From Gammaproteobacteria bacterium (GTDB lineage Bacteria > Pseudomonadota > Gammaproteobacteria > GRL18), in contig JADGDG010000003.1 in assembly GCA_016744995.1 (NCBI GenBank), positions 62,001 through 126,000 of the forward strand: 64,000 bases of DNA. The letters run 5' to 3'. This document shows, in pieces, positions 18,817 through 30,779 of the stretch. The position numbers and the translations under genes are program-made. Below the pieces are notes generated by a model, which saw nothing but the letters and a program-made list of their open reading frames with translations, had not been told where the DNA came from and made no database searches. Positions within the stretch are counted from its first letter, which is position 1; the number at the start of each line of letters is the position of its first letter.

Positions 18817-21807
18817 ATGGTTAAAAAAGAAAATGTATTAAACAAATTCTTTAAACCCTTTTTCGCCTCATTTACTAAAGATAAATGGCAAAGTCGAAAT
18901 CCTGATGTTCGAAAAAAAGCTGTTCAGGAATTGCCTGTGAGTGAGCAGGAAACTTTAAGCAATATTGCCATGAATGATTCAGAAGAATCCATTCGTGCCA
19001 TTGCAGCCAATAAACTCAGTGACCTTGACTTACTGCAGACCATTATTATGAAAGGTACCAATGGCACAGTTAAAGAAGCTGCGCAGAACCGACTCTTTCA
19101 ACTCATCTCTGGTTTAAAACACCCAATCCCTGACTATGATGTCAGAGAAAAAATGATCCGTGGAAGTCGTAATTCTGCACTGCTTGAATTTGTTGCAGCC
19201 AATGCAGATGAAGCCTCACTAAGGGAAATTACTATTAAAAAGGTCAGCAGAGATCCTCTATTAGGTAATATTGCCCTTTCAGATGACAGTCCGCATATTC
19301 GACAACTTGCAGCACAACAAATAGCAAAACGTTCAACTCTGGAACGGGTCACAAAACAATCAAGGCGTAAAGATAAACGTGTTTATAAAATTGTAAAAAC
19401 AAAACTTGATCATATTATTGAAGACGAAGCTCGCCCTGCACTATTAGCCAAAGAAGTGGTTGAGATCTGTAATAAACTGGACAAATTACAAAAACGCAAC
19501 CTTCTCTTACAGGAAAAATCAACATTCGAGAACTATGTTGCCCGTTGGAGTGAAATTCAAAATTTTGCTGATGTGCAAACAACTGAACGTTATCATAATA
19601 TCTGTTCCAGTATCATTATCAGCATGGATGAGCTTGAATTGAGGCTGAAAAAAGAACAGGACGCCATTCAAACTCTTGAAACCCTTCTTAACAATTTATC
19701 AAACGCTGTTGATGACTTGCTTAACGCCAGAGAAAATCAGGATCCTGATAATGCTGAACAGGAAGCAATAAAAACAAGTGAAAAAACCATACTTAATCTT
19801 GGCCGGGAGTGGGACGAGGTTATAAAATGCCTGACCCATGAAGATGTCATATCAGACTATAATTCAAAGTTTCAATCAATCCTCAATCTTGCTGATGAAA
19901 AAACTTTTTTTGAAAACAAAACAGGTGATGACAGCCTGAAAATAATTCAGAGTCTGGCAGAACAATGTGAAAACATGCTCAGTAAACCCGGAGTTATTTT
20001 TGAAAAATCCATTTCAGCAATACAAGATAAATTTCAACATCAGATTGACAACGTATATCAGGCTTCAGACTCTGATCATTCTGATCAATCAGAAAAATTA
20101 GCTCAATTCCAAACAAGGTTTAACACAGCTATTGTGACCCTCAAGGAACAGCTAAGTATTCAACAGAAAAAAGCAGAAAACTTTAATGAAACAATAGTCA
20201 CTAAAACGGATAAAATTAAATCATTAATAGAGCAAGGATTAGTATCCCAGGCTGAAAAATTACTTAAGCAAGAACTTAAACTAATTGACAAATCCGATCT
20301 TATTTCGAATATTGAAAAATCAAAGCATCAGAATAGCCTGCAAAAAATACATTCTCAGCTTGGTGATTTATCCGCCTGGCGTAACTGGGCACATGATCAT
20401 GAACGTGAAAATTTAACAATAAAAGCTGAACAGCTTGCTGAACAAATAAATAATTCCAATGACTTTAAGACTGAATACACCGATATTACTTCACAGGTTA
20501 AAGACTTCAGAAAACAATGGAAATCAATGCACAGCCATACACAGGAAGAAATGTGGCAACGTTTTAACAATGCATGCAATCATGCTTATGAGCAATGTAA
20601 GCCTTATATTGATAAACAGAATGAACAACGTCTTGATAACCTCAAGGCTAAACAGGCACTCTGCGAGCAGTTAGAGCACTATATAAAAACTATGCAATGG
20701 CCTTCTAAAGAAGAGCTTGAGGTTAATCAGTCAATTGACTGGATTCAGGTTGATAAAATCACCAGACAAGCCCGAAAAGAATGGGGCAGCATTGGTTTTG
20801 TTGATAGAAAACATCATCGTAATATCAATGCCCGGTTTGACAAGTCAATTGAAATCATTCGTGATGAGCTTAAAAAAGTCTGGCAGGTTAATCAGGATAA
20901 ATTTTATGATCTCATCCATAAGGTCGAAGCATTAGAAGACATAGTTGAAGATAATTTAAATGATGCTATTAATAGTGCAAAAGCTTATCAGTCCGACTGG
21001 AAAAAAATTGGTCCTGTATCTTCTTATCAAAGAAATAAGCTCTGGAAAAAATTCCGTGGTGCCTGTGATATCATTTTCAATAAACGTCAGGAAAACATTG
21101 AGCAGAAAAATAAAGTCAACACAGAAAAATTAAGAGAAAAAGAAGCTATATGTGAAAATTTAGAAGCGCTTAATCAACAGCCTCTGAATAAAAAGGACCT
21201 TGAAAATGCCTTTCTTGACATAAAAAACCTATGGTTCGAGCTAGGTTCTCAATCCAGATCTTTGAGTAAAGAAGTCAATAAACGCTATGCCCTTGCTCTG
21301 GAAGTCTACCAGGAAAAAATAAAAAGCCTTAACATTGAACTGGAAAAACAATTACTGGTTCAGATCACCCAGGAAGCTGAATTATGTACAAAGGTAGAAG
21401 CTTCAACCGATACAAGCGAAGAAGCAATCAACGAGTTCAGCCAGCACTGGCAAGCTCTCAACAAAGACAAGGTGAATAAATTTCAACTGAGCAAACGTTT
21501 TAATAATTCACTTAAATCTATCGTGACTGATAAAAGTACTCAAATACAGGCCGAAATTACAGCTAAACAACATTTCTGTCTCAAATATGAGATTTTACTT
21601 GCTAAAGAAACACCCGCTGAATTTCAACAATCACGCATGGAAATGCAAGTTGATTTACTTAATTCAAATCTTGGCAGTAATCGAAGTGATGATTCCAATA
21701 CAAGCGTTATAACTGATCTGGAATTACAGTTAGAATGGTATAGCCTGAATAACTATTCACAGGATGCAGACTTAGAGGATCGATTTAAACAATTGCTCTC
21801 TAATTAG
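18817..21807 (+). CDS. DUF349 / HEAT-like repeat protein
   Basis: The product has 996 residues and no signal peptide or membrane helix. Residues about 20-200 look like HEAT-type repeats (RNPDVRKKAVQEL, then DSEESIRAIAANKLSD, then DDSPHIRQLAAQQIAK). The rest is charged and helical, with repeated W-x-x-x-x-x...F segments (for example FRKQWKSMHSHTQEEMWQRFNNACN and YQSDWKKIGPVSSYQRNKLWKKFRGACD) that are the DUF349 repeat. DUF349 proteins are widespread and uncharacterised. AAGG precedes the start. It is a transcription unit after the valS terminator. Confidence 0.85.
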   Translation: MVKKENVLNKFFKPFFASFTKDKWQSRNPDVRKKAVQELPVSEQETLSNIAMNDSEESIRAIAANKLSDLDLLQTIIMKGTNGTVKEAAQNRLFQLISGLKHPIPDYDVREKMIRGSRNSALLEFVAANADEASLREITIKKVSRDPLLGNIALSDDSPHIRQLAAQQIAKRSTLERVTKQSRRKDKRVYKIVKTKLDHIIEDEARPALLAKEVVEICNKLDKLQKRNLLLQEKSTFENYVARWSEIQNFADVQTTERYHNICSSIIISMDELELRLKKEQDAIQTLETLLNNLSNAVDDLLNARENQDPDNAEQEAIKTSEKTILNLGREWDEVIKCLTHEDVISDYNSKFQSILNLADEKTFFENKTGDDSLKIIQSLAEQCENMLSKPGVIFEKSISAIQDKFQHQIDNVYQASDSDHSDQSEKLAQFQTRFNTAIVTLKEQLSIQQKKAENFNETIVTKTDKIKSLIEQGLVSQAEKLLKQELKLIDKSDLISNIEKSKHQNSLQKIHSQLGDLSAWRNWAHDHERENLTIKAEQLAEQINNSNDFKTEYTDITSQVKDFRKQWKSMHSHTQEEMWQRFNNACNHAYEQCKPYIDKQNEQRLDNLKAKQALCEQLEHYIKTMQWPSKEELEVNQSIDWIQVDKITRQARKEWGSIGFVDRKHHRNINARFDKSIEIIRDELKKVWQVNQDKFYDLIHKVEALEDIVEDNLNDAINSAKAYQSDWKKIGPVSSYQRNKLWKKFRGACDIIFNKRQENIEQKNKVNTEKLREKEAICENLEALNQQPLNKKDLENAFLDIKNLWFELGSQSRSLSKEVNKRYALALEVYQEKIKSLNIELEKQLLVQITQEAELCTKVEASTDTSEEAINEFSQHWQALNKDKVNKFQLSKRFNNSLKSIVTDKSTQIQAEITAKQHFCLKYEILLAKETPAEFQQSRMEMQVDLLNSNLGSNRSDDSNTSVITDLELQLEWYSLNNYSQDADLEDRFKQLLSN

Positions 21808-21882: not shown

Positions 21883-22704
21883 ATGGACACTGATACAACG
21901 CTAAAACATGGTATAAAAATTCGTCACCCTGAATTTGATTTCAAAAGTAATATACCTCAATACTGGTTTTGCGATAACCCGGTCATTACCCACAATTTTA
22001 ACGGCTATAATTTGCTGTTTCCTGAATTTGAACGCTTTTTTGTTCGTTCAGTGAATTATTTCAGATCACAAATCCATGACCCAAAATTATTGCAACAAGT
22101 TATAGTTTTCAGTGCTCAGGAATCATTACACGCACAAGCGCATGAAGATTACTTTAAAGTGCTTGAGCGACAGGGCTATAAAATTGATCGTTTTTTACGC
22201 TATTATAAGCGCTATGCTTTAATGATAGAACGGATGGCAACACCTAAACTCTGTATCGCACTCACTGCAGCCGCAGAACATTATACTGCCACTATTGCCC
22301 ACATCGTTTTCACTAACCCGGAATTATTTCATGGGATGCATCCCACCATGAAGAAACTTATCATCTGGCACTCTGCCGAAGAAGTGGAACATAGAAGTGT
22401 TGCATTTGATGTGATGAAAACAGTTGGAGTCAACTACCCTACCCGGCTGCTTGCATTTTTTATGACATCTCTGGACATGCTTTTATGGTCAACTCTCAGC
22501 ACTCTCATGCTGCTGCATCAGGATAGAATTTCTTTGCTTAAAAGTTTTCAGTTTAAGCGCCAGTTCAGTAAACAATTCGGCTCCATCAAAAGACAAATGA
22601 GACAGTCTTTACTGGCCTATATCAAAGCAGACTTTCACCCCGATGATATTAATGATCTTCAACAGGCACATAAGCAGCTTAAGGAAGTAGGTATTAATGA
22701 GTAA
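21883..22704 (+). CDS. Ferritin-like 'metal-dependent hydrolase' family protein (COG3687 type)
   Basis: A 273-residue helical protein. Carboxylate/histidine motifs ESLHAQAHEDYF (near residue 84), AAAEHYTA (near 126) and HSAEEVEHRSVAFD (near 167) resemble a four-helix di-iron site. This pattern is typical of the predicted metal-dependent hydrolase family PF10118, whose chemistry is unproven. A di-iron oxygenase is equally plausible. GGAG precedes the ATG. It overlaps iorA by eight bases, so it is translationally coupled to the 2-oxoacid oxidoreductase genes and opens the nine-gene run. Confidence 0.8.
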   Translation: MDTDTTLKHGIKIRHPEFDFKSNIPQYWFCDNPVITHNFNGYNLLFPEFERFFVRSVNYFRSQIHDPKLLQQVIVFSAQESLHAQAHEDYFKVLERQGYKIDRFLRYYKRYALMIERMATPKLCIALTAAAEHYTATIAHIVFTNPELFHGMHPTMKKLIIWHSAEEVEHRSVAFDVMKTVGVNYPTRLLAFFMTSLDMLLWSTLSTLMLLHQDRISLLKSFQFKRQFSKQFGSIKRQMRQSLLAYIKADFHPDDINDLQQAHKQLKEVGINE

Positions 22705-24541
22705 CACACGATTCGGAGATGGCAATGATGCTATTGCCTGGGCCGCACAAGATGCCGGGGTTAACTATATTTCCCACTACCCCGGCTCGCCAGTTAATCG
22801 TGTTATTAATGTCTTAGAAGAATCAAATCATCAATACATTATCAACCACGCACTAAATGAACATATAGCAGCTTTATCTGTTATGGGGGCGAGTCTTTGT
22901 GGTGCACGTTCATTATTGATAATGAAACATGTGGGGCTCAATATTGCTGCAGATCCGCTGAACTATTCCGCTGTCACACAAATAAAGGGCGGTATGGTGA
23001 TTGTCGTAGGCACTGATCCCGGCGCCCGCACCAGTACCGGGGAAGAGGATGTCCATTGGTATGCACCACAATTTAATTTACCATTATTAGAGCCGGCTAC
23101 AGTACAGGATGTGTATCATTTTGTTCAGCAGGCATTTGAACTTTCAGAGCAATCCCGGCTGCCAATTTTGATCTTTGTACCGGGCAGGTTGGCCTATCAA
23201 TCCAGTCTTATATCACGCAATCCATCTGAAACAATCAAAAATGCCCCTTTACCTGAGTTTAGTTTTCAAAAAGATCCTGATACATTAATTAATGTTGGTA
23301 AAAGAGCAATAAAAAATCATCGTCAGCATATTCTTCGCCTGAAAAAATTTCAGCAGCAATCAACTGATCATTTCAGCACACATTTTAACCCTGAGGCAAG
23401 CTTTGGTGTGGTCACCCGGGGAGCCAGTTATAGTATTTGTTATGAAATCATTAGCTCATTAGATCTGACTGATAAAATACACTTGCTCAATATTGAATTA
23501 ACCTACCCCTTAAATATAAACTGCTTTATTAATTTTGCACAAAACAAACAGAAGATTATTATCATTGAAGATCAGGATGGGTTTCTGGAAACCATGATCA
23601 AGCGAGAAGCTTTTGGTCTGATCCAGTGCACGGTTCAGGGAAAAGATCTATTTCCAATCTGGGGAGAGCTGAATGATGATCTGATCAGGAAATATTTGGC
23701 TAAAGAATTTAATTGCTTAGCAGAAGAAATCAATAATGATAACAAGCTGGATATTCATATTAACTGCCCTGAGCGCCCTGGTACTTTTTGTGAAGGTTGC
23801 CCACATCGTTCCTCTTTTTATGGTATAGACAAGGCGCTTGATGAAATCAGACTAGAGCAGGGAGACCATCTGCAAACTTCAACCGGAATTATTGGCGGGG
23901 ATATTGGCTGTTCATCATTGCCGCCACATCGTACAGACTGGCTATTATGCATGAATGCTGGTATCGGCATATCTCAGGGTATTGCTCACTTGCTGCCTGA
24001 ACAAAATCTGGTTTCTACCGGTGGTGAAGGCAGCCTTTTTCACGGCGGATTAATTGCCCTGCAAAGTGCTGTTGAAAATGAAATCAACCTGACTCATATA
24101 ATTTTTGATAACCGCAGTATCGCAATGACCGGGCATCAAAATTCTCCAACATCAACGGGGAAAGTTGATCTGGAAAAATTACTGGAAGCTATTGGTGTCG
24201 AACATATTTTTACAGTCAATGCCTTTGTTTCTTCACAAACCAGCCAAGCGATTAAAGAAGCAACAAAACTTCATGGCGTAAAAGTCATCTGGGTACAGGG
24301 AGATTGTGCTCTACAACCCAATCCAGAGGCTCTGAGACGTTTTAAAGAACGTAAGCTGTTTATCCACAATGAACTCTGCAAAAATTGCTCTTTGTGTTAT
24401 GAACAACTGCAATGCCCTGCTATTATACTGACTGCTCAAAAACTGCTGGAGATTGATCTCCATCGCTGTCGACGTTGTGCAGCCTGCTTAGATGTTTGTC
24501 CAAATAATGCCATTGAGGTTGATGATTGCCATGCAGGATAA
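22697..24541 (+). CDS. iorA: Indolepyruvate ferredoxin oxidoreductase alpha subunit-like protein
   Basis: A thiamine diphosphate enzyme that oxidatively decarboxylates 2-oxoacids (classically aryl pyruvates) to acyl-CoA with reduction of ferredoxin. The 614-residue product has an N-terminal pyrimidine-binding domain (YPGSPVNRV, HVGLNIAADPL). A CEGCPHR motif lies near residue 364, and the TPP-binding GGDIGCSS...LCMNAGIGISQGIA and DNRSIAMTGHQNSP follow. Two C-terminal [4Fe-4S] motifs are C-x2-C-x2-C-x5-C-P (near 560) and C-x2-C-x2-C-x3-C-P (near 589). Strong AGGAAG-type site upstream. Substrate is uncertain. Confidence 0.92.
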   Translation: MSNTRFGDGNDAIAWAAQDAGVNYISHYPGSPVNRVINVLEESNHQYIINHALNEHIAALSVMGASLCGARSLLIMKHVGLNIAADPLNYSAVTQIKGGMVIVVGTDPGARTSTGEEDVHWYAPQFNLPLLEPATVQDVYHFVQQAFELSEQSRLPILIFVPGRLAYQSSLISRNPSETIKNAPLPEFSFQKDPDTLINVGKRAIKNHRQHILRLKKFQQQSTDHFSTHFNPEASFGVVTRGASYSICYEIISSLDLTDKIHLLNIELTYPLNINCFINFAQNKQKIIIIEDQDGFLETMIKREAFGLIQCTVQGKDLFPIWGELNDDLIRKYLAKEFNCLAEEINNDNKLDIHINCPERPGTFCEGCPHRSSFYGIDKALDEIRLEQGDHLQTSTGIIGGDIGCSSLPPHRTDWLLCMNAGIGISQGIAHLLPEQNLVSTGGEGSLFHGGLIALQSAVENEINLTHIIFDNRSIAMTGHQNSPTSTGKVDLEKLLEAIGVEHIFTVNAFVSSQTSQAIKEATKLHGVKVIWVQGDCALQPNPEALRRFKERKLFIHNELCKNCSLCYEQLQCPAIILTAQKLLEIDLHRCRRCAACLDVCPNNAIEVDDCHAG

Positions 24542-25160
24542 AACAATCTGCAATCTTATTATCTCTGGTATTGGGGGACAAGGCATTAATAGTCTTGCTC
24601 TGGTACTGGCTGATTTTTTTTACCAGTCCGGTTACGGCTGTCAGTTCACTATTCATAAAGGTGGTGCACAATCATTAGGCAGTGTTTATGCAGAGTTCCG
24701 GATCAGTAAACAGAAACTAGCCGTATTGGGTCCGGGAATTCCCCATAATCAATTGGATATTCTGATTGCTCTGGAGCCATGGGAAGCTTTACGGCACCTG
24801 TCTCTGGCACACAGCAAAACACTTGTTTACGTTGAAACAGAAACCATGCCGTTATTTACCGAAAGAGACTCTGAGCGGATCACTGGAAAAGAGGCAGCTG
24901 CTCCACTTAAGCTGCCACAAACACAATTACAAGAGCTGCCCTTACACATCCAATGGCAGTCATATCGAAAGACTGCCTTGCAGAAAAATGGCATTGTAAA
25001 AATGGCTAATTATTATGCAGGACTTGATTGTCTTACGGCCATTAAACAGATCTTTGTTCACTGTTCAGACAGCAATGAGAAACATCTCTTTGACAAGCTG
25101 TTTTTTAAACAGATAAAAAAAGCTAAACCACGGCTTGATTTAGATTATGACACAGAATAA
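24531..25160 (+). CDS. iorB: Indolepyruvate ferredoxin oxidoreductase beta subunit-like protein
   Basis: Partner subunit (gamma/beta type 2-oxoacid oxidoreductase). The N-terminal LIISGIGGQGINSLALVLADF is the family's glycine-rich motif, and KGGAQSLGSVYAEFRIS is the next conserved block. The ATG at 24531 gives about 209 residues and overlaps the iorA stop; an ATG at 24522 is also possible. It overlaps the radical SAM gene by 14 bases, indicating coupled translation. Confidence 0.9.
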   Translation: MQDKTICNLIISGIGGQGINSLALVLADFFYQSGYGCQFTIHKGGAQSLGSVYAEFRISKQKLAVLGPGIPHNQLDILIALEPWEALRHLSLAHSKTLVYVETETMPLFTERDSERITGKEAAAPLKLPQTQLQELPLHIQWQSYRKTALQKNGIVKMANYYAGLDCLTAIKQIFVHCSDSNEKHLFDKLFFKQIKKAKPRLDLDYDTE

Positions 25161-26586
25161 ATGGCAGGCTAAACAGGGAAGACCGGCACAACACTGGCAA
25201 CCCTTTAAATTGGACCGGGCAGAATGTCGCTTGTGCCCACGTCATTGTCAGCCAAAAAATAATCGCATGGGTTTTTGTGGTGTACGCGGCACTGTTGAAG
25301 GGAAATTTCAAACATTTAATTTCGGACTCTCACTGGCAGCAACTGAAGAAGTGATTGAAACAGAAGCAGTCAATCACTTTAGTCCCGGCACCCGAATTCT
25401 GAGTATGGGTAATATCGGTTGCATGATGGCGTGTTCCTTTTGCCAGAACTGGGAAACTTCTCAGATAAAGCATCTTGATCCTCAGGCAGTACGACATTAT
25501 AGTCCTGCTGAAGTGGTAGAAATATGTCTGAAAAATAATATCCCAATGATCTCCTGGACATATAATGATCCAGTTGTCTGGCACGAGTTTATTATTGAAA
25601 CTTCCACCCTGGCACAGCAACATGGAATTAAAACACTTTATAAGTCAGCTTTTTATATTGAACAGAAACCCGTTGAAGAGTTATTGCAATGTATAGATAT
25701 TTTCAGTCTGTCATTAAAATCACTTAATGACAAATTTTATCAGAAACACACGAAGGCCAGAATTCAGCCGGTACTTGAGCGAATTAAACAAGTTGCAGCA
25801 TCAGATAAACATCTCGAGATCAGTCAACTCCTCATTCCCGAATTAAACGATTCAGATGAGGATATTATCCAGACAATTGACTGGGTATTAAAAAACCTGG
25901 GCACCGAGATACCTCTGCATTTTGTTGCCTTCCATCCTGCTTATCAATACCAACAAGTTAACCGAACAGACGTCTCCAGCCTCAAACAGGCACGCAGGCT
26001 TGCATATTCAAAAGGCCTGAAGCATATCTACCTTGGGAATACTTTGGACGCAGGGTTAAATGATACATTTTGCCAGCAATGCGGCGTACTTCTGGTGCAG
26101 CGTTATGGACTGCATGCTAATGCAATTAATCTGGATGAACATTCACACTGCTGTCAATGCGGCACTCTCTCCTCTATCATCAGACCATTATCATCCTCAC
26201 CTGAATTAACCTTCCCTTCCTTCAGCATGGAGACATCTACTTTTGATAAAGAAGGAGGAGGCCATACTGAAGACACTAAGAAAAAACAAATAATAATCCA
26301 CTGGCATGAAGAAGCTCAAAGCATTCACATCCTGCAACTTGATGCTAAAGGTGCAAGTGATACTCTATTTATTCGTTCTATTGGTTATAATCATGGTATT
26401 AAAAAAACCTTGTCACATGGACTTGAGCGTTTTATTATTTCACGTCAGCATCCTTCTGAGACCGGGGTGGTGATCAGCTGGGAGTCAGATTGCCAGTATC
26501 AAGCTCTGGCATTATTAGATCGGGCTCATTATCCTACGTATTCATGTACATCAGAACAACAGATAATGCCGCTTATATCAGATTAA
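25147..26586 (+). CDS. AmrS-like radical SAM enzyme with extra C-terminal domain
   Basis: The 479-residue protein has a family-typical N-terminal Cys set (C27, C30, C34, C44 in CRLCPRHC...GFCGVR). The radical SAM cluster motif is C-x3-C-x2-C at C92, C96 and C99 (GCMMACSFCQN). A cysteine pair CQQCG near 309-312 and CCQCG near 335-338 resemble the AmrS end. AmrS belongs to the AMMECR1/MEMO/radical SAM trio; neither partner is in the window. About 130 further residues (350-479), starting with a Ser/Pro-rich linker, are not recognised. Substrate is unknown. Confidence 0.85.
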   Translation: MTQNKWQAKQGRPAQHWQPFKLDRAECRLCPRHCQPKNNRMGFCGVRGTVEGKFQTFNFGLSLAATEEVIETEAVNHFSPGTRILSMGNIGCMMACSFCQNWETSQIKHLDPQAVRHYSPAEVVEICLKNNIPMISWTYNDPVVWHEFIIETSTLAQQHGIKTLYKSAFYIEQKPVEELLQCIDIFSLSLKSLNDKFYQKHTKARIQPVLERIKQVAASDKHLEISQLLIPELNDSDEDIIQTIDWVLKNLGTEIPLHFVAFHPAYQYQQVNRTDVSSLKQARRLAYSKGLKHIYLGNTLDAGLNDTFCQQCGVLLVQRYGLHANAINLDEHSHCCQCGTLSSIIRPLSSSPELTFPSFSMETSTFDKEGGGHTEDTKKKQIIIHWHEEAQSIHILQLDAKGASDTLFIRSIGYNHGIKKTLSHGLERFIISRQHPSETGVVISWESDCQYQALALLDRAHYPTYSCTSEQQIMPLISD

Positions 26587-26587
26587 A

Positions 26588-26663
26588 TTTTATAAGGCTA
26601 AACTTTATAAGACTAACTTTTATAAGACCAGATTTTATAAGACTTAATTTCATAAGATAAAAA
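26588..26663. repeat. Five tandem 15-bp repeats between the radical SAM and PLP genes
   Basis: TTTATAAG recurs at 26589, 26604, 26619, 26634 and (as TTCATAAG) 26649, each followed by seven variable bases. The period is exactly 15. The array starts right after the radical SAM stop codon and ends about 30 bases before the PLP gene. It could be slippage-prone spacer DNA or a protein-binding array. Confidence 0.8.
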
Positions 26664-26692
26664 ACAAAACAAACAGATAGATAGAAAACAAA

Positions 26693-27829
26693 ATGAATAA
26701 AACACATCCGGAAACAGAAGCTCTGCATTTTAGGATCAATAATGCAGAAACTCACCCTGTTGCAACACCTATCTATCAAAACAGTGCTTTTACTGCAGAC
26801 TCACCCTATTTTTATACTCGTAAAAGCAATCCGAATAATGTTGAATTTGAAGGGGCTCTGGCACTGCTGGAAAAAGCCCGGCATGTTATCAGCACAACAA
26901 CAGGAATGTCAGCAATTATGCTGGTTCTCCAACAGCTTCACCCAGGCGACCATCTGGTAATTAACCAGTATATTTATGGATGCAGTTATAAGCTCTTTCA
27001 ACGATATACTGAGCACATGGGGATAACACTTTCTATTGTTGATTTATCTGAACCTTCCGGACGCGAAAATATTCCTGACAATGTATCAATGGTCATATTT
27101 GAAACACCCACCAATCCTTTTTTAAAAACCATACCAATAAAAGAAGTGTCTGATATTGCCAGGGGGAAATCACCGGGGGCATTAATCGTCGTAGATAATA
27201 CCTGGGCAACCCCTTTGTTTCAAAATCCTTTAGACTGCGGTGCCGACATTTCGCTGGCCAGTGCCACTAAATATATTTCAGGACATAGTGATGTTATGGG
27301 CGGCTTTATTGCGCTGAATGATGATACCTTAGCCGAAGCACTGCTTGAAACACGTTTTTATTCCGGTGCTATTTTGGATCCCAATAGTGCCTGGTTATTA
27401 CGTCGAAGCTTACACACATTCCCTCTGCGCATGCGTGAGCATGTTCAAACCACTCAGAGCCTGTATCATTTTTTAAAAACACGTGATGAGATCAAAATTA
27501 TTTATTACCCCGAGAAATCAACACAACAGTTACGAGACTATGGTGGTATTTTATTTTTCCAATTCAGTGAAGAGCATCAACACAGTTATGCTCAGTTTAT
27601 TCAATCTTTAACACTTTTTGATACCGGTACCGGTATGGCCTGCGTCAGTTCAATGGTCGCTCAGCCCTGGTCAGGCAGCCATGCATCACTGTGTGATAGT
27701 GAAAAAACGGCAATGGGAATTAATACTGATCTGGTAAGGCTCTGCTTTGGTCTGGAGAATAGTCAGGATTTAATCGCTGATTTAGAAACAGCTTTTTTGT
27801 CTCTGAGCGCCCTTGAAACTCATGAATAA
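26693..27829 (+). CDS. Cys/Met-metabolism PLP-dependent enzyme (cystathionine gamma-synthase family)
   Basis: The 378-residue product has the family's substrate/cofactor YTR motif (Y41-R43), the PLP-nitrogen Asp D168 in VVDNTWATP and the Schiff-base Lys K193 in SATKYISGHSDVMGG. Family members catalyse gamma- or beta-elimination or replacement on cysteine, homocysteine and homoserine esters. The specific reaction cannot be told from sequence, and cystathionine or methionine lyase activities are options. It overlaps the desaturase gene by eight bases. Confidence 0.88.
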   Translation: MNKTHPETEALHFRINNAETHPVATPIYQNSAFTADSPYFYTRKSNPNNVEFEGALALLEKARHVISTTTGMSAIMLVLQQLHPGDHLVINQYIYGCSYKLFQRYTEHMGITLSIVDLSEPSGRENIPDNVSMVIFETPTNPFLKTIPIKEVSDIARGKSPGALIVVDNTWATPLFQNPLDCGADISLASATKYISGHSDVMGGFIALNDDTLAEALLETRFYSGAILDPNSAWLLRRSLHTFPLRMREHVQTTQSLYHFLKTRDEIKIIYYPEKSTQQLRDYGGILFFQFSEEHQHSYAQFIQSLTLFDTGTGMACVSSMVAQPWSGSHASLCDSEKTAMGINTDLVRLCFGLENSQDLIADLETAFLSLSALETHE

Positions 27830-28604
27830 TAAACCGCTATTTCCCTGGAAGCTCGCTCTATTTCCTCTATTGGAATTTATTTTTTTTATTGCAGCTCTTT
27901 GGGCCAGCCCTATGTATTTATCTTTGCTTTTTATATTGATTGCAGGTGTTTTATTAAGTTTTAGTATTCACATTTTTTTTCATGAATGTGTCCATTTTAA
28001 AGATGAGTACTCGACCAGTACCCATATTCTCTACTCACTCCTATTGGGTTTGCCCTTTGACGGCTATCGAGTCCATCACTTCAATCACCATACCCATTCT
28101 AATAGTCTGAAAGATTTTTCAACAACCTGGTACCTGGTAAATAATGAAAAAAAAGCCTATTCAGCCTGCCGTTATACTTTTGGCTGGTTACGACAACTTT
28201 CAATAGCAGTTCATGAAGCAGAACCTTTTGATAAGGACATGGACAATGTTAAACAAATTAAATCTCGTATAGGCCCGCAAAAAATAGCCATTATTGGTTT
28301 TTACTTTGTCCTGGCATTGATCAGTTTAAAAGCATTTCTACTTTATTTTACACTAACTTATCTGGGCTGGGCATTTTCTGCCTTACATAATTATGGCCAG
28401 CATCCACCTGATGGAACTAATACTATATGTACTTATGCTAACAAAACGTATAACTGCATTTTTTTTAATAATGGGCTACACTGGGAACATCATCAAAAAC
28501 CGGGTTTAAGTTGGGATCAACTGTCATTAGAGAACAATAGCTCTCGAATAAAATATCCACATTTAGTCAATCCATGCATGGAAATCTTAATGGACAAAAC
28601 ATGA
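27822..28604 (+). CDS. Membrane fatty-acid desaturase-like protein
   Basis: The start is ATG at 27822 (a TTG at 27813 would add three residues), giving 260 residues. The three His boxes of membrane di-iron desaturases are present: HECVH at 54-58, HHFNHHTH at 85-92 and HWEHH at 220-224, plus HNYGQH near 189. Hydrophobic segments lie at about 11-50 and 150-182. It probably desaturates or hydroxylates an acyl or other lipid chain in the membrane; regiochemistry is unknown. It overlaps the next gene by ATGA. Confidence 0.88.
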   Translation: MNNKPLFPWKLALFPLLEFIFFIAALWASPMYLSLLFILIAGVLLSFSIHIFFHECVHFKDEYSTSTHILYSLLLGLPFDGYRVHHFNHHTHSNSLKDFSTTWYLVNNEKKAYSACRYTFGWLRQLSIAVHEAEPFDKDMDNVKQIKSRIGPQKIAIIGFYFVLALISLKAFLLYFTLTYLGWAFSALHNYGQHPPDGTNTICTYANKTYNCIFFNNGLHWEHHQKPGLSWDQLSLENNSSRIKYPHLVNPCMEILMDKT

Positions 28605-28780
28605 ATAAAATCAAGCCTGAACCAAATAACAATAATAGTAATAAGCAAACAAATTCCCGACAACACAATAATGGCAGCATCCTGTCATCATTTTTATTGA
28701 TCATCTGGTATTTGTTCTTAGCAGCCCTGTCCATTACGGCACTGGGTCTGGTTGCACTCTTTGTTGTGTGTATGATTTAA
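28601..28780 (+). CDS. Small one-helix membrane protein
   Basis: The start overlaps the desaturase stop as ATGA, which indicates coupled translation and supports a real gene. The 59-residue product has an Asn-rich hydrophilic N-terminus (about 30 residues), then a hydrophobic helix (SFLLIIWYLFLAALSITALGLVALFVVCMI). No family is recognised. It could be an accessory subunit of the neighbouring membrane enzymes. Confidence 0.6.
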   Translation: MNKIKPEPNNNNSNKQTNSRQHNNGSILSSFLLIIWYLFLAALSITALGLVALFVVCMI

Positions 28781-28808
28781 ACCATGCGTAAATAGAAATG
28801 GAAATAGA

Positions 28809-29552
28809 ATGGAATTCAACCTCATCCATCATCATGACATTCTCGGTTCCGGCAGTCGTCTGAGCTATCAGTTTTTTGTCATTATTGCAATGCTGGCTGG
28901 CGGCTGGCTGGTTCGGGAAGACTCCAGTAAATGGCTCATAACAGCAACACAGCGCTGGAGCATACTTGGAATCGCTTTTTTTGGTGCTCTCATTGGTTCA
29001 GCTATACCGGCTTTTTTTGCCGGCGGTTTTGTTGAACAGCTTGCCTGGTCTGTGCCCATCACCCCAAAGACCGTCATGGGCGGAATTCTCTGTTCTTTTT
29101 TATTTGTTGCAATCTATAAAAAAATAACACTTATTCATTATGATACCAGTGATGGTTTTGCCCGAGGTGCCATTGCGATAATGGCTATTGGCCGTATAGG
29201 CTGCATATTTCAACACTGCTGTTATGGTAAACAAGCCTCCTGGGGAATGCATTTTGGTGATGGATTATTACGTATACCCGTACAATATTTTGAAGCCTTT
29301 GGCCTTTTCGGTATTTTTTTCCTGATTCAATATTTACACACTAAGAATTTATTTTCAGGACGACGACTCTTTATTGTCTTTGCATTATATGGCCTGCTTC
29401 GATTTTCTCTGGAATTCTGGCGACAACAGATCGCTGGTATTTATTTCGGTATTGGTTTCTACCAGTGGATTGCCCTGCTTATTTTATTTACTGGAATTTG
29501 GCAAATTAGTCACCGTTCATTCAATAGAAAACAACAAGTTGAAGCTGCATGA
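28809..29552 (+). CDS. Lgt-family (prolipoprotein diacylglyceryl transferase) paralogue
   Basis: A 247-residue polytopic membrane protein with about seven hydrophobic segments. The Lgt signature is altered: GRIGCIFQHCCYG at 128-140 replaces the usual GR.GNF.N.E..G, but the Arg (R129) remains. Near the end, LLRFSLEFWRQQ (R198, R205) matches the conserved 'R...EF.RQ' segment of Lgt. Lgt moves a diacylglyceryl group from phosphatidylglycerol to a cysteine thiol. The changed motif suggests a different acceptor or role. Overlap with the next gene is ATGA. Confidence 0.82.
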   Translation: MEFNLIHHHDILGSGSRLSYQFFVIIAMLAGGWLVREDSSKWLITATQRWSILGIAFFGALIGSAIPAFFAGGFVEQLAWSVPITPKTVMGGILCSFLFVAIYKKITLIHYDTSDGFARGAIAIMAIGRIGCIFQHCCYGKQASWGMHFGDGLLRIPVQYFEAFGLFGIFFLIQYLHTKNLFSGRRLFIVFALYGLLRFSLEFWRQQIAGIYFGIGFYQWIALLILFTGIWQISHRSFNRKQQVEAA

Positions 29553-30712
29553 TATTCCTTCAGGATGCTATTTGTCCGGCACTTGAACAACGCAGCTTAC
29601 TTTGTCAAAGCGTTCAGCAGGCACATAAAGAAGCACTATCCATAGTCAATAACATCACCGGATACCATTCAATAATTCAGACCAGGCATAAAACAAACAA
29701 TCAATGGACGGTTACTCTGGGTGATAATTTATTATTTGATCTAACGGGTCTTAATGCCATAAAAGAGGCAATAGATTCTTATCAGGGAAGTTCCAGACAG
29801 TTAAACTTTAAGCTCAGACTTTCACCTCAGGCAATACGTGATTATTATAGTCATAATATTTATCTTGATAAAAATGGTCTGATCGAGCTGCCCGTAACAG
29901 CGACAAAAGCATCAATCCATAACAATGCAGACACAGACAAACAGGAAACATTAAACATCACTCTCAATGAGCTAAGCACTTCAATTATTTATCCTCTGGC
30001 ACTCACTAAACCCGATTTAAATAACACACCTCTGGCACTTCTTATACCTTTCAGTTGTGATCATGACAGCCTTTTTGCTAATCAAATTGCACTTTTTTCC
30101 CAATTAAATTATTGCTTAAGAAAACAAATAATACGCTCACCCATGCTCTGGTTAAAGGTTTTATTATCCCGAAGAAAAATCAATTTGAAACAAAAATTAT
30201 CACTTGCGTGGAAACAGATCCACCCCCGGGCTGATATCCATCATACTGCAGTCATTGAAGGTTCTGTTATTGGTGAAGGCTGCCGTATTGGTGCACACTG
30301 TGTAGTACGCTATAGTGTTATTGGAAAAAATGTACAATTACATGATGGAGCTAAACTTGAATACTCTGTCGTTGATGATAATAGCTGGCTTATGCATGAT
30401 CTTGTTTTATATCGCACTGTGGTTGAAAAAAATTGTTTTCTGATACATGGCCCCTATCAATTTTCTTATTTTCAAAATGAAAGTGCAGCTTTTGCCAATA
30501 TTATGATGGACTACCGTCCTGACAACAAACCCATTCGCATTAATACACCTCATGGCATACGTGACTATCAGGGACGTTTTTTAGGAGCCTTATTGGAAGA
30601 AGGAGGCAAGGTCTTTGGCGGTACTTTGACAGCACCGGGTGTTACTATACCGAAGAGGCAGGAAATTAGCTGTGATATTAAAAATATTACTACGGCAAAA
30701 AATCTAGGGTAG
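29549..30712 (+). CDS. Left-handed beta-helix (hexapeptide repeat) protein, probable acyl- or nucleotidyltransferase-like
   Basis: The 387-residue product has an unrecognised N-terminal region (about 1-220), then hexapeptide repeats (ADIHHTAVIEGSVIGEGCRIGA onwards, about 227-300) of the left-handed beta-helix type used by many acyltransferases and sugar nucleotidyltransferases. A His lies in the loop (LIHGPYQFSY), and RFLGALLEEGG and APGVTIPKRQ follow. The N-terminal half lacks a recognisable GTase motif. It overlaps the Lgt paralogue by ATGA and is the last gene of the run. Confidence 0.75.
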   Translation: MIFLQDAICPALEQRSLLCQSVQQAHKEALSIVNNITGYHSIIQTRHKTNNQWTVTLGDNLLFDLTGLNAIKEAIDSYQGSSRQLNFKLRLSPQAIRDYYSHNIYLDKNGLIELPVTATKASIHNNADTDKQETLNITLNELSTSIIYPLALTKPDLNNTPLALLIPFSCDHDSLFANQIALFSQLNYCLRKQIIRSPMLWLKVLLSRRKINLKQKLSLAWKQIHPRADIHHTAVIEGSVIGEGCRIGAHCVVRYSVIGKNVQLHDGAKLEYSVVDDNSWLMHDLVLYRTVVEKNCFLIHGPYQFSYFQNESAAFANIMMDYRPDNKPIRINTPHGIRDYQGRFLGALLEEGGKVFGGTLTAPGVTIPKRQEISCDIKNITTAKNLG

Positions 30713-30720
30713 ATGAAAGT

Positions 30721-30750
30721 CAGGACAGACAGGCTAAGCCGCCTGCCCTG
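30721..30750. other. Hairpin between convergent genes
   Basis: CAGG..CAGGC, loop TAAGCC, GCCTG.CCTG forms a stem followed by six A on the forward strand. No T run follows in either direction of transcription, so a terminator role is uncertain. Confidence 0.35.
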
Positions 30751-30779
30751 AAAAAACTCAATAAGTTAGAAGCAGATAG

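Follow-up and report, generated by a model that had tools for sequence, protein, structure and literature searches.

The described systems that come closest to the locus reported here each share one part of it. They are the indolepyruvate:ferredoxin oxidoreductase IorAB, the AmmeMemoRadiSam system with its radical S-adenosylmethionine (SAM) enzyme AmrS, the sugar-1-phosphate nucleotidylyltransferase/acetyltransferases of the ST0452 type together with LpxA, LpxD, and GlmU, the aryl-polyene and type II fatty-acid-like clusters with MMPL exporters, and Lgt, the enzyme of lipoprotein maturation that forms S-diacylglyceryl thioethers. The locus itself is a run of nine genes at 21883-30712 of the window (the whole stretch of 64,000 nucleotides analysed, from the gammaproteobacterial contig JADGDG010000003.1), encoding a ferritin-like protein (Fer), IorA-like and IorB-like subunits, an AmrS-type enzyme, a pyridoxal phosphate (PLP) enzyme of the Cys/Met-metabolism type, a desaturase-type enzyme (Des), a mini-protein, an Lgt-like protein, and a left-handed beta-helix protein (LbH). 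The enzyme families are known, whereas neither their combination nor the mini-protein seems to have been described; no description of the gene combination was found in the open-access literature searched. We propose, with a probability of about 0.4, that the run is a lipid-type biosynthetic operon for a membrane product, in which the cysteine of the mini-protein is an attachment or carrier site and the mini-protein itself the likely anchor or substrate.

The operon IorAB has the architecture and the thiamine pyrophosphate (TPP) and Fe-S motifs of indolepyruvate:ferredoxin oxidoreductase, but its subunits lie below the equivalog cut-offs (TIGR03336, 412 bits against 650.9 for the IorA-like protein; the IorB-like protein likewise well under its NCBIfam equivalog cut-off) and stand alongside lipid-type genes. 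AmrS exceeds the curated cut-off of its family (TIGR04337, 302 bits against 220), whereas AMMECR1 and Memo are absent from the operon and the operon enzyme carries an extra C-terminal domain. LbH has the left-handed beta-helix domain of ST0452, LpxA, LpxD, and GlmU, with an N-terminal domain that, unlike that of ST0452, is shortened and without the GxGTR motif. The aryl-polyene and type II fatty-acid-like clusters share beta-ketoacyl synthase (KS), FabA-like, acyl carrier protein (ACP), short-chain dehydrogenase/reductase (SDR), and MMPL genes with a distant version of the cluster (genome G419), whereas the window operon has neither KS nor ACP. As for Lgt, the residues Y26, H103, R143, N146, G154, and R239 are absolutely required in the Escherichia coli enzyme, in which R143 and R239 hold the phosphatidylglycerol headgroup; elsewhere in Lgt the H103 position is H, Y, W, or F, and N146C occurs in distant Lgt (PMC13251419, mBio 2026).

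Conservation and distribution of the gene set

Homologues of the core, namely IorA, IorB, AmrS, the PLP enzyme, Des, the Lgt-like protein, and LbH, recur, either as one block or divided into the same sub-blocks, in about a dozen gammaproteobacterial species, in one 'Geobacteraceae' metagenome-assembled genome (MAG), and in one Bacteriovoracaceae MAG. The carriers include MAGs assigned to Leucothrix and Cocleimonas. All nine genes are present, in unchanged order and at 70-85% identity, in a genome of the same genus (G012), and also in genomes of another family (G024), where the ferritin-like gene stands last instead of first, and of a third family (G148), where it is first. A scan of 84,980 species with LbH as marker gave 11 loci, and all the genomes behind them have the PLP gene and an Lgt-like gene of the operon type (in G392 only as a fragment on a short contig), with the other core genes in nearly all. 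Two fragmentary MAGs depart from this: no AmrS of the operon type was found in G393, and G395 gave only a distant AmrS. The set is split in G389, G391, G392, and G393 into recurring blocks, namely IorA-IorB-AmrS (locus L063), PLP-Des with or without the mini-protein (L043, L044, L046), and mini-protein-Lgt-LbH (L014, L016, L018), a split for which assembly may be partly responsible, given the short contigs of these MAGs. G396, the Bacteriovoracaceae genome, carries the genes in two divergent arms, IorA-IorB-x-mini-Lgt and AmrS-PLP-Des-LbH.

The gene set goes beyond chance, since other genera and classes have these genes together in altered order, and the nine-gene run is a real functional unit whose genes are inherited and rearranged as a set. 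An earlier sequence-only reading of the window had staked its grouping on such a neighbourhood search, holding that genes rarely found together would speak against it, and the outcome favours the operon; the ferritin-like gene, which that reading had counted as a full member, is present in 5/12 genomes and is optional, outside the obligatory core.

The distribution is sporadic, that of a rare but clearly conserved set: the Lgt-like gene is found in 2/16 sampled genomes of the window's genus, the IorA type at an identity of at least 60% in 3/369 genomes drawn from the class (the window's own counted), and LbH in 6/63 genomes in the order of G389 and 1/277 in the class of G394. The figures for the genus and for the order of G389 are what would be expected of a loose operon of unrelated metabolic genes, kept by chance or lateral transfer. 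Such an explanation is hardly credible and is already contradicted by the neighbourhood data, in which the PLP and Lgt-like genes accompany LbH in every marker genome and the remaining core genes in nearly all, in changed order and with recurring sub-blocks. A plasmid search with the Lgt-like protein gave no match. Some published organism names are unreliable; the 'Aquificaceae' label of the MAG behind one locus (L015, MAG 28) might be taken for transfer to another phylum, a reading dropped because the genome (G390) belongs to the order of G389.

The mini-protein

The gene listed in the sequence-only reading as that of a one-helix protein is the most telling and central part of the operon. Its product in the window has one predicted transmembrane helix and a cysteine, Cys57, two residues from the C-terminus (..LVALFVVCMI). 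Counterparts bring the number of mini-proteins to 16 (the window's included) in 11/12 genomes; they are 42-143 residues long, with a single hydrophobic helix near the C-terminus, a Cys at the helix end, and then 2-9 residues. Only Met1 and Cys57 are invariant columns in the alignment of the 16, at a mean column identity of 19%, and the invariant Cys lies at the predicted outer end of the helix, at the membrane interface. Chance alone yields many short open reading frames (ORFs) in which a terminal Cys accompanies a hydrophobic stretch, so that the weight of the case lies on conservation; substitutions between close pairs pile up at third codon positions (9/1/13 and 6/2/14). The mini-protein is thus a genuine protein, and its invariant Cys occupies the place expected of a lipidated cysteine.

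The clearest multiplication is in L047 (G394), where four near-tandem mini-proteins with divergent N-termini follow the PLP gene within 2.2 kb (65-2267), three of the four with zinc-ribbon-like Cys pairs in the N-terminal part. Pathways for ribosomally synthesised and post-translationally modified peptides use a small precursor with one conserved modifiable residue, often in several copies; the invariant Cys of the 16 sequences and the four neighbouring copies of L047 may be a parallel to this. Between the four mini-proteins of L047 there is a 233-residue protein without a Pfam match.

The operon might instead make a free lipid or a polyketide-like small molecule, with the mini-protein as a structural or assembly subunit of Des and the Lgt-like enzyme and its Cys in a structural, palmitoylation-like, or metal role. 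In one locus (L015) Des is followed by one mini-protein and the Lgt-like gene is preceded by a different one, and G391 likewise has one of each position on two contigs (L044, L016), as enzyme-specific subunits would; moreover, distant relatives without mini-proteins keep IorAB, AmrS, PLP, and LbH with ACP and KS genes. However, the four divergent copies of L047 suit a family of substrates better, and in a structural subunit one would expect the residues of helix packing to be conserved, whereas only the terminal Cys is invariant. We consider this small-molecule pathway the main rival to attachment at the Cys, and somewhat unlikely.

The Lgt-like protein

The Lgt-like protein belongs to the same Pfam-level family as Lgt (PF01790, 56.9 bits against a cut-off of 24.9) but does not reach the NCBIfam model for lgt (TIGR00544, 22.1 bits against 118.9), and a separate, normal Lgt is encoded elsewhere in the same genome. 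In an alignment of 11 Lgt-like copies with the genome's own Lgt and others, the residues R129, G140, R198, E202, and R205, which correspond to E. coli R143, G154, R239, E243, and R246, are kept, as is the equivalent of Tyr26 in all but one copy, the window protein included among those that keep it. In contrast, the H103 position, Met90 in the window protein, is M or L in 11/11 copies, and the equivalents of N146 and Glu151 are Cys. The set of residues required in E. coli is therefore only partly present, with Y26, R143, G154, and R239 kept and H103 and N146 changed. That the N146-to-Cys change alone excludes Lgt activity was considered and dropped, as the lspA-linked housekeeping Lgt of two Bacteriovoracia share this Cys; the His103 change weighs more, because only H, Y, W, or F is listed at that position (PMC13251419). 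In the lspA-adjacent Lgt of the two Bacteriovoracia (G524, G419; L079, L080), LAGCCYG replaces the FINGE-type motif and Tyr replaces His103. A sequence search of solved structures with a three-sequence Lgt-like profile gave no match.

Two explanations that keep the chemistry of Lgt bear on these residues. The sequence-only reading had suggested a biosynthetic or lipid-modification system, perhaps one in which PLP, IorAB, and AmrS make a small thiol, to be turned into a thioether lipid when the Lgt paralogue adds diacylglycerol to it. The broader idea has good support from the conserved gene set and from the G419 relatives. The small thiol is quite improbable: enzymes of the PLP family do act on sulphur amino acids, Lgt does form S-diacylglyceryl thioethers, and its lipid-binding Arg residues are kept in the Lgt-like protein, but there is no direct sign of such a thiol, M or L stands at the position of the catalytic His, and the operon already encodes a conserved protein thiol. 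As the only invariant residue beyond Met1, the interface Cys of the mini-protein is a more plausible acceptor than a small thiol of which nothing is seen.

The Lgt-like protein might also be a true Lgt, the second of the genome and specialised for tiny lipoproteins, on which it would form the ordinary S-diacylglyceryl Cys; LspA would then leave a lipopeptide of two to ten residues, and the other genes would supply or alter the lipid. The position of the mini-protein Cys, at the predicted outer helix end, would fit that of the lipobox Cys in an Lgt substrate, and a SIMGC ending that resembles a lipobox is found in four mini-proteins (L014, L015, L016, L018). Motifs of the N146-to-Cys type are shared by the lspA-adjacent Lgt just mentioned, and N146C occurs in distant Lgt. 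On the other hand, only 4/16 have this ending and a bulky residue precedes the Cys in most (V, I, T, S, or L). By the lipobox rule, cleavage by signal peptidase II is unlikely with a bulky residue before the Cys, and therefore the enzyme probably makes no cut and the helix would stay as an anchor. Given also the M or L at the H103 position and the score of 22 against the lgt cut-off of 118.9, we regard a second true Lgt as very improbable.

Relatives outside the operon suggest a broader pattern. Among 398 genomes drawn from the phylum, 9/10 more distant Lgt-like matches (L091-L097, L099, L100) adjoin a gene for a Tes/TrsS-like radical SAM protein, and the tenth (L098) is a normal HGG-type Lgt. 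An Lgt-like protein of G038 (L011), lacking the His of HGG, likewise stands directly beside such a gene, whose product scores 283 bits with TrsS and 262 bits with Tes, each below the cut-off; for L091-L100 the class of the radical SAM genes was judged by eye, from likeness to this protein. These pairs share with the operon the Lgt fold without the H103 equivalent and the radical SAM neighbour, but the latter is of another family, and no PLP, Des, LbH, or mini-protein gene was seen in the short flanks read. There is thus a wider group of Lgt-fold proteins that lack the His and are tied to radical SAM genes, the latter being related to a lipid enzyme, and the pairing points to lipid chemistry beyond lipoprotein maturation. 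No function for the pairs was found in the papers searched, and TrsS appears in that literature merely as a list entry.

The other enzymes and distant relatives

Families were assigned with the NCBIfam curated cut-offs as well as those of Pfam. For IorA, IorB, the PLP enzyme, and the Lgt-like protein, the names stand for folds and not reactions, because none of the four comes near the curated cut-off for the activity after which it is named. The IorA-like protein conserves E55, GDIGC, and eight C-terminal cluster Cys, and most IorB-like copies the G-x-GGQG motif. AmrS has CxxxCxxC and an N-terminal CxxCPxxC invariant in 10 sequences, and its extra C-terminal domain is a separate gene in the distant relatives G419 and G524 (L052, L055); a search of solved structures by sequence matched pyruvate formate-lyase activases only. 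AMMECR1 was not found in 4/10 operon-bearing genomes searched (G389, G390, G391, G396), while in G000 AMMECR1 and Memo stand together on another contig. No described function or reaction of AmrS was found in the papers searched.

In the PLP enzyme (PF01053, 315 bits; best NCBIfam model 256 bits against 594), the PLP-binding Lys193 is invariant and Y95-G-C97 is conserved; it is not assignable to a named activity such as cystathionine gamma-synthase/lyase or Met gamma-lyase. Des (PF00487, 77.6 bits) has the histidine boxes HIFFH, HHFNHH, and HWEHH, and the patterns HxxxH, HHxNHH, and HxEHH are common to 10/10 sequences. The di-iron ligand set of Fer (E80, H83, H87, E132, H133, E166, E167, H170) is invariant in five sequences; PF10118 receives only incidental mention in the literature searched. 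In G024 (L009, 9540-10502), a convergent gene adjoining Fer encodes a protein that by eye reads as a 2Fe-2S ferredoxin/reductase fusion, a possible redox partner. For LbH, an AlphaFold2 model from 13 sequences reached a predicted local distance difference test score (pLDDT) of 75.5, compared with 33 from three sequences. Its best match over nearly the whole length is the archaeal ST0452 (Z 21.0, 295 residues, 4.7 A), its C-terminal helix matches the LpxA/LpxD acyltransferases, in line with its LbH/hexapeptide Pfam match, and the nucleotide-binding GxGTR motif is absent in 13/13 sequences. On this model, LbH is likeliest an acyltransferase with a dead nucleotidyltransferase domain.

Lipid-type partners appear to recur in distant versions of the cluster. 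In G419 (L052, L053), homologues of IorA, IorB, AmrS, PLP, and LbH occur with KS-like (named by eye), FabA-like, ACP, SDR, MMPL, and B12-radical SAM genes, and in G524 IorAB and AmrS occur with an MMPL-type protein similar to that of G419 and two other radical SAM-type (MiaB-like) proteins. Directly beside IorA-IorB in G524 (L051, 8371-10165) there are genes for an HgcAB-like corrinoid fusion protein (307.8 bits, cut-off 285) and a methyltransferase.

Layout and boundaries of the locus

The sequence-only reading had counted nine same-strand genes with seven junctions that overlap or are shorter than 30 bases, as we confirm here for nine ORFs (Table 1); its three ATGA or eight-base overlaps are in fact four. 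Its family names also hold by profile match (PF10118, IorA, IorB, AmrS, PF01053, PF00487, PF01790, and LbH/hexapeptide). The exception among the eight junctions is the 106-bp gap between AmrS and PLP. Overlaps of 8 bp join Fer to IorA and PLP to Des (ATG 27822), ATGA overlaps join Des to the mini-protein and the Lgt-like gene to LbH, a 14-bp overlap joins IorB to AmrS, and a 28-bp gap lies between the mini-protein and Lgt-like genes. IorA and IorB overlap by 11 bp if IorB starts at ATG 24531, as taken here, other in-frame starts further upstream being possible. The AmrS-PLP gap is largely filled by five imperfect 15-bp tandem units (TTTTATAAGACTAAA-like, window 26587-26661), which were not seen in the shorter AmrS-PLP gap of the same-genus relative L013.

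Table 1. Features of the nine-gene run and its downstream boundary (window positions)
Feature	Position	Strand	Basis
Fer, ferritin-like di-iron protein, optional member	21883..22704	+	PF10118, 242 bits
IorA-like TPP 2-oxoacid:ferredoxin oxidoreductase, two C-terminal 4Fe-4S motifs	22697..24541	+	TIGR03336, motifs
IorB-like gamma subunit	24531..25160	+	PF01558
AmrS-type radical SAM enzyme, extra C-terminal domain	25147..26586	+	TIGR04337
Cys/Met-metabolism-type PLP enzyme	26693..27829	+	PF01053
Des, membrane fatty-acid-desaturase-type di-iron enzyme	27822..28604	+	PF00487
Mini-protein, one predicted transmembrane helix, Cys57 near C-terminus	28601..28780	+	counterparts, codon-position signal
Lgt-like membrane protein	28809..29552	+	PF01790
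LbH, left-handed beta-helix acyltransferase-like, degenerate nucleotidyltransferase-like N-terminal domain	29549..30712	+	Pfam, AlphaFold2 model
13-pair hairpin between operon and convergent DUF302 gene	30720..30751	.	likely operon boundary

Downstream, the run is limited by the convergent DUF302 gene and the hairpin. Upstream, a same-strand gene (18817-21807), ending 75 bp before the run, encodes a DUF349-like coiled-coil protein of 996 residues, named by eye and without an NCBIfam match; it also lies upstream of the cluster in the same-genus genome G012 and was not found beside the cluster in taxa other than this. None of the nine proteins matched the defence-system models of PADLOC.

Discussion

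The reading of the run as a lipid-type operon is based on the co-occurrence and rearrangement of the core, the recurrence of its sub-blocks, pairwise protein distances that correlate across the operon genes (r 0.86-0.99), and intact catalytic motifs, and also on the KS, FabA-like, ACP, and MMPL genes of the distant versions and the match of the LbH model to acyltransferases. A lipid role for the Lgt-like protein is suggested by the phospholipid-contacting Arg residues that it keeps and by the Tes/TrsS-like neighbours of its distant His-less relatives, and the mini-protein Cys is put forward as the site because it is invariant at 19% column identity, in four copies in L047, and in a gene with a codon-position signal.

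In order of falling support, IorAB would convert a 2-oxoacid into acyl-CoA and/or reduced ferredoxin and serve the radical SAM enzyme AmrS, the PLP enzyme would act on the gamma or beta carbon of an amino acid, making or breaking a bond there, and together the three may yield a small acyl or amino-acid-derived group. LbH would then transfer an acyl group, and Des, with Fer where present, may oxidise the acyl or alkyl chain with O2. Finally, the Lgt-like protein would bind a phospholipid headgroup and attach the lipid part to the mini-protein; the likeliest site would be the Cys, on the outer face of the inner membrane, and the helix would probably remain as anchor, uncut by signal peptidase II.

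Several points weigh against this proposal. The lipid or acyl identity of every intermediate is guesswork, and the substrates, the order of reactions, and the final product are inferred. Without an equivalent of H103, thiol alkylation may not be the reaction of the Lgt-like protein, and as this paralogue lacks the proposed catalytic His even diacylglyceryl transfer is inferred. The mini-protein could serve Des or the Lgt-like enzyme as a structural subunit. The Bacteriovoracia G419 and G524 have part of the core, and no Des, mini-protein, or second Lgt-like gene of the operon type was seen in them. The distance correlation reflects co-inheritance but mostly common descent, and nearly all loci come from MAGs, so that absences may be assembly gaps.

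A bolder form of the proposal, which we hold to be unlikely, is a new class of peptide-lipids, in which tiny one-helix precursors have their C-terminal Cys joined by a His-less Lgt-fold enzyme to a lipid tailored by the pathway, apart from lipoprotein maturation. The operon provides an AMMECR1-independent context for the radical SAM enzyme AmrS, and it brings enzymes that are sensitive to oxygen together with others that use it, a relative of Lgt, and a tiny membrane peptide with an invariant Cys at its end. If the attachment of a lipid part to the mini-protein is true, the Lgt fold would have a role beyond lipoprotein maturation, alongside radical SAM chemistry and with a mini-protein of its own, and these bacteria would have a new route to membrane lipids or lipopeptides, with Cys57 as one directly testable residue.

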